In this document: in pieces, positions 4,588-25,318 of the stretch | Layout of the letters: the number at the start of each line of letters is the position of its first letter | Position numbering within the stretch: position 1 is the stretch's first letter | Origin: Persephonella sp. | GTDB taxonomy: Bacteria > Aquificota > Aquificia > Aquificales > Hydrogenothermaceae | Length of the DNA: 53,070 nucleotides | Assembly (NCBI GenBank): GCA_027030485.1 | Contig: JALVEY010000173.1 | Location: 1 to 53,070, forward strand | Direction: 5' to 3' | Notes under the pieces: model-generated | What the model saw: the letters and a program-made list of their open reading frames with translations, nothing else | What the model was told of the DNA's origin: nothing | Database searches by the model: none | Translations under genes and position numbers: made by a program

Positions 4588-5757
4588 CTATCCTGTTTGT
4601 TTTGCAAGTTCTACAGCTTTTTGGGCTCCTTCCCACATGGTATCAGCAGGAATAAGATCAAGCCCAGATTCTGCAAGCATCTTCTTACCAAGCTCCACAT
4701 TTGTTCCTTCCATTCTCACAACTATTGGAACATGGGGATTTACCTCTTTTGATGCCTGAATGATACCCTCAGCAAGTCTATCACACCTTAAGATACCGCC
4801 GAATATATTGATAAAAATAGCTTTAACGTTAGGATCAGAAAGTATAATCTTGAATGCATTTGCTATCTGCTCAGCATTTGCAGAACCTCCAACGTCAAGG
4901 AAGTTCGCAGGTTCTCCTCCGGCAAGTTTTATTGTGTCCATTGTTGCCATTGCAAGACCTGCACCGTTTACCATGCAGGCTATATTTCCATCAAGTTTTA
5001 TGTAGTTCAGGTTGTACTGTTTGGCTTTTACTTCAAGCTCAGATTCCTGTGTTGGATCTTCCATCTCCATTATGTCAGGATGTCTGAAAAGGGCGTTATC
5101 GTCAAAATCAACCTTTGCATCAAGAACAACAATATTTCCTTCTTTCGTCAGAACAAGAGGGTTGATCTCAACCATAGAGGCATCTTCTTTCATATAAACA
5201 TTGTAAAGCTTCAGGAAGACCCCTGCCACTTTGTTTATCAGGTTTTTTGGAAAGCCAAGCTTAAGGGCTATATTTCTTGCCTGGAAGGCTCGAAGTCCTA
5301 TAAATGGATCTATTTCTTCTGTTATAATAGCCTCTGGATTTGTGGCGGCAACCTCTTCAATCTCCATTCCACCTTCTGAAGATGCCATAATGATCAGTTT
5401 TGACTTACTTCTGTCTAATGTGATAGCAACATAGTACTCCTTGTCTATGTTTGTCCCTTCCTCTATGTATATCCTGCTGACCGGCAGACCTTCAGGACCT
5501 GTCTGAAATGTTATAAGAGTTTTCCCAAGTAGTTCAGCAGCATACTTCTGAACCTCATCAAGGTTGTTTGCAAGTTTTACACCTCCTGCTTTTCCCCTAC
5601 CTCCTGCATGGATCTGTGCCTTAACCACAACAGGAAATTTGCCAAGCTGCTGGGCAGCCTCAACCGCCTCCTCAACTGTAAATGCAGGATAACCTTTTGG
5701 TACAGGAAGTCCATATTTTGCGAATATTTCCTTTGCCTGATGCTCATGTACTTTCAT
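4588..5757 (-). CDS. sucC: Succinyl-CoA synthetase (ADP-forming) beta subunit
   Basis: [25 protein letters not shown]-grasp N-terminus; [32 protein letters not shown]. Confidence 0.96.
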
Positions 5758-9245: not shown

Positions 9246-9776
9246 ATGGCTTATATAAAGCTGCCTGAACTTGAGGATATGGATCCTGAAATACAAAAAC
9301 TTGCCAGAGAGATTCTTGAGAAAACAGGAAAGTTAGGGGAAATTTTTAAACTGCTTGCAATAAGAAAGGATATTTACTTTATGACAGACAACTGTGTTAA
9401 AACACTCCTCCTAAACGAAACAGAGCTTCCTTACTCAACAAAAGAAAGAATAGCTTTGCTAATATCAAAGGAAAATAACTGTCCTATGTGTGTTGATGTT
9501 CACAAGAACATTGCAAAAATGCTGGGAATGTCTCAGGAACAGATAGAGGAAACCCTTAAAGGTGTAGATCAGATAAATACATCTGAAGAAGAAAAAGAAC
9601 TTTTAAGGTTCTGTATCAGAGCATCAAGGAAAGACAACTATAAGATAACAAAAGAAGAACTTGATAGGATACTAAACTTAGGATACACAATAAGCCAAGT
9701 TTTTGAGGCTATTACGATAACCGCTTACTTTAATTATATAAACACCTTATCAAATGTTTTTGGTTTAGGAAAGTGA
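9246..9776 (+). CDS. Carboxymuconolactone decarboxylase / AhpD-like protein
   Basis: CxxC-xx-H motif NCPMCVDVHKNIAKMLG with the all-alpha AhpD-like pattern. Confidence 0.85.
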   Translation: MAYIKLPELEDMDPEIQKLAREILEKTGKLGEIFKLLAIRKDIYFMTDNCVKTLLLNETELPYSTKERIALLISKENNCPMCVDVHKNIAKMLGMSQEQIEETLKGVDQINTSEEEKELLRFCIRASRKDNYKITKEELDRILNLGYTISQVFEAITITAYFNYINTLSNVFGLGK

Positions 9777-24276: not shown

Positions 24277-24382
24277 AATATTTCTTTAGATTAAATTTAA
24301 TAATGTTTCGTCTATTTGCAAAACTTAATTAATGTTGAAAGTTTAAGGATACTGCAGATATTTATGAAAGAAGGGTGAGAAT

Positions 24383-24691
24383 ATGAACAGAATTATGATG
24401 TTATCTATACTTGCTGTTATCTTTTTTAGTATTGGAGGTCTATCTTATTATCTGTATGAAAGTCTTTACAAAAAACAATACAAGTATTATAAAGGGGAAA
24501 TAAGGAAAACGCCGAAATACTATAAAGCAAAACCTGAAAAAGCTCCTAATTACTACAAGGGTTCATTAAAAAAAGTTCCTAATTATTACAAAAAGGATAT
24601 AAGGGATCTTCCTAACTACTATAGACCTGAAGGTTCTGTAAAAAAATCAGACAGAGCTTCAAAATTGAAAAGCCTTAAAGAGAACTGGTAA
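24383..24691 (+). CDS. Small N-terminally membrane-anchored protein with tandem 11-residue YYK repeats; unknown function
   Basis: MNRIMMLSILAVIFFSIGGLSYYLYESL hydrophobic N-terminus, then YYKGEIRKTPK / YYKAKPEKAPN / YYKGSLKKVPN / YYKKDIRDLPN / YYR. AGAAGGGTGAG upstream could act as RBS. Confidence 0.75.
   Translation: MNRIMMLSILAVIFFSIGGLSYYLYESLYKKQYKYYKGEIRKTPKYYKAKPEKAPNYYKGSLKKVPNYYKKDIRDLPNYYRPEGSVKKSDRASKLKSLKENW
24485..24625 (+). repeat. Tandem 33-nt (11-aa) coding repeats, four full plus partial
   Basis: Tyr-Tyr-Lys every 11 codons starting at 24485, each unit ending Pro-Lys or Pro-Asn. Protein-level repeat; DNA copies are diverged. Confidence 0.85.
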
Positions 24692-24694
24692 TTT

Positions 24695-25318
24695 TTAATA
24701 AACAAAAAGGGATTTAAGTTTTTTTATAGCCTCTGCCTTTATCTGTGAAACTCTTGAAACAGATACATTTATCTCACTGGCAACAGATTTAAGATCTCTT
24801 TCTTCAAAATAAAGCATCTGAAGTACTTTTTTTTCTTTTTCTGAAAGGAGATTTACCGCCTGCAAAAGTTTTTCTTTTTGATCTTCCCTGATAACTTCTT
24901 CTTCAGGTGTTTCCTTTTCTGAAACGAGAGTATCAACGATTTTCAGGCTATCATCTGATGAAAGGGCTTTTTCTATACTTACCATAACGGCTGTGTTTGA
25001 TAGGGGAACTGTTTTTCCTTCCTCTAATGGGGTCTCTTTTTTTATCTTATCCCTAACGGTTCTTGGGACTATATCAAGGCTTCTCAAATAATCAAGTATT
25101 TCTCCTCTTATTTTGATGTAAGCATAAGTTGAAAATTTGGCTTTGTCCTTGTCGTACTTTTGTATAGCTTTCATAAGACCTATGACTCCAACATTCACAA
25201 GATCATCAAACTCTATATCCCCCTTTGGCAATCTGTAGTATATTTTGCTTGCAACCTTTTTCACAAGAGAGATATTGTCAAGGATAAGTTTTTCTCTTTC
25301 TTTTTTTTCCATTTTCAT
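24695..25318 (-). CDS. fliA: Flagellar sigma factor FliA (sigma-28)
   Basis: LVKKVASKIYYRLPKGDIEFDDLVNVGVIGLMKAIQKYDKDKAKFSTYAYIKIRGEILDYLRSLDIVPRTVRDKIKK; region 4 EKEKKVLQMLYFEERDLKSVASEINVSVSRVSQIKAEAIKKL. Start revised from 25351 to MKMEKKER (ATGA overlap with flhG). Confidence 0.95.
   Translation of the reverse strand: MKMEKKEREKLILDNISLVKKVASKIYYRLPKGDIEFDDLVNVGVIGLMKAIQKYDKDKAKFSTYAYIKIRGEILDYLRSLDIVPRTVRDKIKKETPLEEGKTVPLSNTAVMVSIEKALSSDDSLKIVDTLVSEKETPEEEVIREDQKEKLLQAVNLLSEKEKKVLQMLYFEERDLKSVASEINVSVSRVSQIKAEAIKKLKSLFVY

Follow-up and report, generated by a model that had tools for sequence, protein, structure and literature searches.

YYK, a constrained family of repeat-bearing membrane proteins in the Hydrogenothermaceae, and its place in the flagellar cluster of one genus

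The locus and the encoded protein

The stretch of DNA that we analysed (the window) is 53,070 nts of a Persephonella genome. It includes a flagellar cluster, and from position 9765 to 45142 all main ORFs are on the minus strand with the single exception of a short gene that we refer to as YYK. YYK runs divergently from the ORF at the fliK position, from which it is separated by 106 nts, and convergently with fliA, whose ORF ends at 24695, so that 3 nts lie between the two stop codons. In Table 1, we report the positions of YYK, of its parts and of the neighbouring features discussed in the text.

Table 1. Features of the YYK locus, in window coordinates.
Feature	Position	Strand	Remarks
YYK CDS, 102-aa YYK-repeat membrane protein	24383..24691	+	homologues, selection
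Hydrophobic transmembrane / signal-anchor segment, residues 4-22	24392..24448	+	Kyte-Doolittle 2.1, AF2 helix
Repeat 1, YYKGEIRKTPK	24485..24517	+	
Repeat 2, YYKAKPEKAPN	24518..24550	+	
Repeat 3, YYKGSLKKVPN	24551..24583	+	
Repeat 4, YYKKDIRDLPN	24584..24616	+	
Closing fifth dyad, YYR	24617..24625	+	
Basic amphipathic C-terminal tail, RASKLKSLKENW, conserved	24653..24688	+	pN/pS 0.19; predicted helix 88-101
Intergenic element TTTCGW-N6-GCAAAA-(H)TT(D)ATTA, conserved	24306..24331	.	upstream of fliK
ORF at the fliK position, 595 aa	22489..24276	-	
TPR-repeat protein, 656 aa	20532..22502	-	signal-like N-terminus

The YYK ORF starts with an ATG shortly downstream of a GGGTGA-like ribosome site and encodes a small protein with a pI of about 10 and one transmembrane segment by both Kyte-Doolittle hydropathy and AF2. 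The repeats begin at residues 35, 46, 57 and 68, and the YYR at residue 79. When residues 27-102 are shuffled 100,000 times, a run of five YY dyads with a period of 11 never arises, and at most three dyads are reached (22 cases). In the 72 intact 11-mers of the family, the two tyrosines are conserved at 96% and 94%, the lysine that follows at 93%, G/A at position 4 at 74%, and P10 and N11 at 81% each, for a consensus Y-Y-K-[GA]-[DNS]-[ILMP]-[KRE]-[KN]-x-P-N. Nearly all members retain four repeats (five aromatic dyads), and four members from the genus that we label g5 have one 12-residue unit. In the AF2 model, the disordered arm lies between an N-terminal helix (residues 2-42, with pLDDT 75-85 across the first 30 residues) and a second helix at the C-terminus (88-101); the mean pLDDT is 59, and the model was run with a two-row alignment and is of low confidence. 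Because Pro and Gly recur inside each repeat and at its end and the arm is disordered in the model, we set aside a reading of the array as 11-mer amphipathic helices of the apolipoprotein/synuclein type.

The protein at the fliK position has no match among Pfam and NCBIfam models, and within the genus its sequence changes very rapidly (about 32-58% identity over short stretches), in a cluster where the neighbours are mostly 75-95% identical. The TPR-repeat protein that follows is an unnamed, conserved flagellar-cluster protein: it is found between fliK and flgB family-wide at 35-68% identity, and it weakly matches SctY, a model of a type III secretion chaperone (E 1e-4). In one congener, G002 (L049, C142, 4931-6132), the flhA-flhF-flhG block abuts other genes and flhG has neither fliA nor YYK beside it, which indicates that the flagellar cluster is split there.

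A constrained family within the Hydrogenothermaceae

Using one-sequence and profile searches, we find YYK in 19 of the 41 Hydrogenothermaceae genomes (18 besides the window's own), with profile E values from 1e-23 to 1e-45. The carriers belong to four genera: 11 of the 14 genomes in the window's genus (g1), one genome in g3, two in g4 and five in g5. A Persephonella MAG record has a protein 87% identical to that of the window. Outside the Hydrogenothermaceae, no match better than 5e-4 appears in the 136 genomes of the phylum Aquificota that we searched, and none was found in plasmids and phages. Neither the window protein nor 17 aligned members have a credible family match in Pfam, NCBIfam or PHROGs, and the best E values of the YYK profile against the PDB are 0.11-0.63. 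The Extensin_1 Pfam model is grazed by two members (E 0.002), a compositional hit. We found no relevant literature on the repeat or the locus. YYK is previously unnamed, and undescribed in the libraries searched.

The family is real and constrained, and it is confined to the Hydrogenothermaceae among the genomes searched. Across 10 congeners, pN/pS is 0.32 for the whole protein, 0.15 in the repeats and 0.19 in the last 12 residues, and it rises to 0.53 in residues 1-26 and to 0.76 in the linker: the repeats and the tail are under strong purifying selection while the anchor and the linker drift. At the DNA level, the four repeats are just 45-67% identical to one another. Between congeners, repeats of the same index are 83% identical and repeats of different index 48%, which argues for an old array of fixed number and not for a recent duplication.

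The original prediction for this DNA fares well on all of these points. Its description of a 102-aa ORF with a hydrophobic segment, four 11-residue repeats and a closing YYR is correct in every checkable detail, as is that of the only plus-strand gene in the flagellar cluster, divergent from fliK and ending 3 nts from the fliA stop. Its proposal that the register persists through selection on the protein agrees with the diverged repeat DNA, the low pN/pS of the repeats and a period kept across members. It recognised no family, and our searches of Pfam, NCBIfam, PHROGs and the PDB yielded none either; where it named missing homologues or a drifting register as grounds for dismissal, we find 19 positive genomes and a conserved register.

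Genomic neighbourhoods of YYK

In every g1 carrier YYK adjoins fliA, and in all cases where the contig covers the whole site it has fliK on its other side. In g3, g4 and g5 it is never at flagellar loci. The fliA gene is found directly beside the fliK-position ORF, with no YYK, in g3 and in two g5 genomes (which have YYK elsewhere), and also in the non-carriers g2, g7 and g8. The closed junctions in two carrier genera identify the seat in the flagellar cluster as a later relocation: this position is derived, and confined to g1. Here the original prediction is not supported in the flagellar link that it suggested, as the linkage across carrier genera is limited to g1.

The conserved intergenic element has an exact match once per genome, only at this site, in six genomes of the window's genus. 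In g3 it is recognisable before fliK at the junction without YYK (L114, about 5600 to 5640), so the gene that it most likely serves is fliK, not YYK, and it would predate the insertion of YYK; possibly it is a promoter or a regulator site of the fliK operon. A sigma-28 or shared promoter for YYK was considered for this element and rejected, since at 3 mismatches it is no commoner than a reversed control, and since it is present in g3 in the absence of YYK.

The other homes of YYK are of two kinds. In g3 and g4, YYK is the second of four co-directional genes, which encode an A-adding tRNA nucleotidyltransferase (PAP; DHH-CBS-PolyA_pol), YYK, an OmpR/PhoB-type response regulator (RR) and a histidine kinase (HK); in g3 the PAP and YYK genes overlap by 4 nts. 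In g5, YYK either comes after two genes for CNNM/CorC-type membrane proteins (transporters) or, in G017, is near hydrogenase genes. The g3 and g4 lineages are not sisters in the nucleotidyltransferase tree (one of the forks that separate them is weakly supported), and on the simplest reading the order that they have in common is the ancestral one; by synteny, the PAP-RR-HK operon is probably the original home of YYK. PAP, RR and HK are adjacent with no YYK in between in G003 (g1), in G017 and G030 (g5) and in G109 (g8). The set (L055 4060-4300; L039 8119-11748) is broken up in several g1 genomes other than G003.

The presence of YYK on the nucleotidyltransferase tree requires at least 4 changes, and the best reading of its distribution is an ancestral gene with losses. 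No diverged YYK is seen at the CNNM2 site in the non-carriers g2, g6, g7, g8 and g10. The G034 contig stops some 40 bases beyond CNNM2, and the absence of YYK there is probably an assembly gap.

Topology, proposed function and alternatives

Most members have 0-2 Lys or Arg before the membrane segment, 2-4 within the 15 residues after it, and 15-23 after it in total; the flank after the segment is at least as basic as the N-tail in most members. Both g4 members have 5-6 Lys or Arg at the N-tail, which clearly favours N-in/C-out. As the flanking charges give no clear signal in most members, a periplasmic topology is plausible rather than proven, and we lean modestly towards N-in with a periplasmic arm.

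Our tentative proposal, for which we claim somewhat less than even confidence, is that YYK is bitopic in the inner membrane and carries a flexible arm, of basic and aromatic character, that binds an envelope polymer and/or modulates a kinase. The N-terminal anchor would retain the protein in the inner membrane, and the proline-punctuated arm would reach into the periplasm. There, the evenly spaced Tyr-Tyr-Lys sites may bind an anionic or glycan polymer of the envelope (peptidoglycan, LPS or a surface polysaccharide) multivalently, and the tail may dock on the membrane or on a partner. YYK could then act as an envelope tether and/or as an accessory protein that informs a neighbouring sensor kinase of the envelope type. 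No recognisable peptidoglycan- or LPS-binding fold or motif is found in Pfam or the PDB, and the arm is disordered in the AF2 model. In a bolder form of the proposal, which we regard as improbable, YYK would represent a previously undescribed class of ligand-presenting arm in the periplasm of thermophilic Aquificota, whose five dyads on an 11-residue ruler read an envelope polymer multivalently and report to a sensor kinase through the membrane.

The layout of YYK is like that of TonB-type arms, which have an N-terminal anchor, an extended Pro/Lys spacer and a conserved C-terminal element; YYK differs in that it is far shorter, has Tyr-Tyr dyads at a strict 11-residue period, and has no match to the TonB C-terminal domain. 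Mussel foot proteins and extensins likewise adhere, or bind to the wall, through short Tyr-, Lys- and Pro-rich tandem repeats, but YYK is not homologous to them, and it is bacterial and membrane-anchored with four individually conserved repeats.

The arm could instead be cytoplasmic (N-out, C-in), where it would bind nucleic acid, ribosomes or anionic lipid, or have its dyads phosphorylated on tyrosine. In its favour are the high pI, the overlap in g3 with the gene of an RNA-modifying enzyme, and the distribution of charge: with 0-2 basic residues ahead of the membrane segment and 15-23 beyond it in most members, the positive-inside rule would suggest C-in. Yet the charges right beside the segment are nearly balanced, the g4 N-tail is strongly basic, and short starts of MK followed by hydrophobic residues are typical of signal anchors, all of which make a cytoplasmic arm unlikely.

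The link to the sensor kinase is a lead. An orthologue of the kinase is found in 17 of the 19 carriers and is absent from the non-carriers g6 and g10; the two carriers where it was not found are fragmented drafts, the window's own genome (83% complete) and G007 (71% complete). In every between-genus carrier pair except one, conservation is higher in TM1 of the kinase than in its core, and where the core is about 0.5 identical, the sensor region is 0.38-0.47 identical between the carriers g5 and g3, and 0.28 between g3 and the non-carrier g9, in a comparison that includes few lineages, with pairs that are non-independent and confounded by phylogeny. The kinase is also fairly conserved (55%) in the non-carrier g2, and this intermediate case, together with the dependence between pairs, leaves kinase conservation as a lead and not a proof.

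Sensor kinases are known to have small modulators that span the membrane once, such as MgrB (PMC8404706, PMC10576120) and MzrA (PMC2727453). YYK is, like MgrB, SafA and MzrA of the Enterobacteriaceae, a small single-pass inner-membrane protein, and in two genera its operon also encodes an OmpR/PhoB-type RR and an HK; this candidate modulator differs from them in having no sequence match, in its four 11-residue repeats and in its relocation off the two-component system in g1 and g5. That YYK is nothing but a dedicated modulator of the neighbouring kinase, with no structural role of its own, draws on this precedent, on the operon in g3 and g4, and on the occurrence of the kinase in carriers and the conservation of its TM1 and sensor there. 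We judge it unlikely, because in g1 the two-component system genes are located away from YYK and in g5 they are also unlinked, because no kinase is found in the two fragmented carriers, and because five evenly spaced dyads resemble a multivalent polymer binder more than one docking site.

YYK is probably not a flagellar part. FlhA is present in all 19 carriers and in 15 of the 22 non-carriers (Fisher p 0.0098, uncorrected for phylogeny), and the genus g9, next to g3 on the tree, has neither flagella nor YYK; the 15 FlhA-positive genomes without YYK make the motility link weak. These observations, with the constant position beside fliA in g1, are what a genuine flagellar accessory part or regulator (a motor tether, a peptidoglycan anchor or an export factor) has in its favour. 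Such a role is improbable when set against the absence of YYK from flagellar loci in g3, g4 and g5, the closed junctions in two carrier genera, its strand opposite to that of the flagellar genes, and an intergenic element that most likely belongs to fliK. No sequence match to a known flagellar family is found in Pfam, NCBIfam or the PDB. Finally, a spurious ORF or decaying low-complexity sequence, as a repetitive composition and the lack of a family in Pfam, NCBIfam, PHROGs and the PDB might suggest, is refuted by the 19 genomes, three kinds of neighbourhood, the repeat pN/pS and the kept period.

YYK illustrates how a flagellar role suggested by the synteny of a single genus can fall away in a wider comparison, here one that includes empty junctions in carriers. 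The operon of tRNA nucleotidyltransferase, RR and HK provides a direct handle on the function of YYK. Unnamed, constrained and built on a fixed repeat ruler, YYK is a clean small target for the envelope biology of deep-branching thermophiles.
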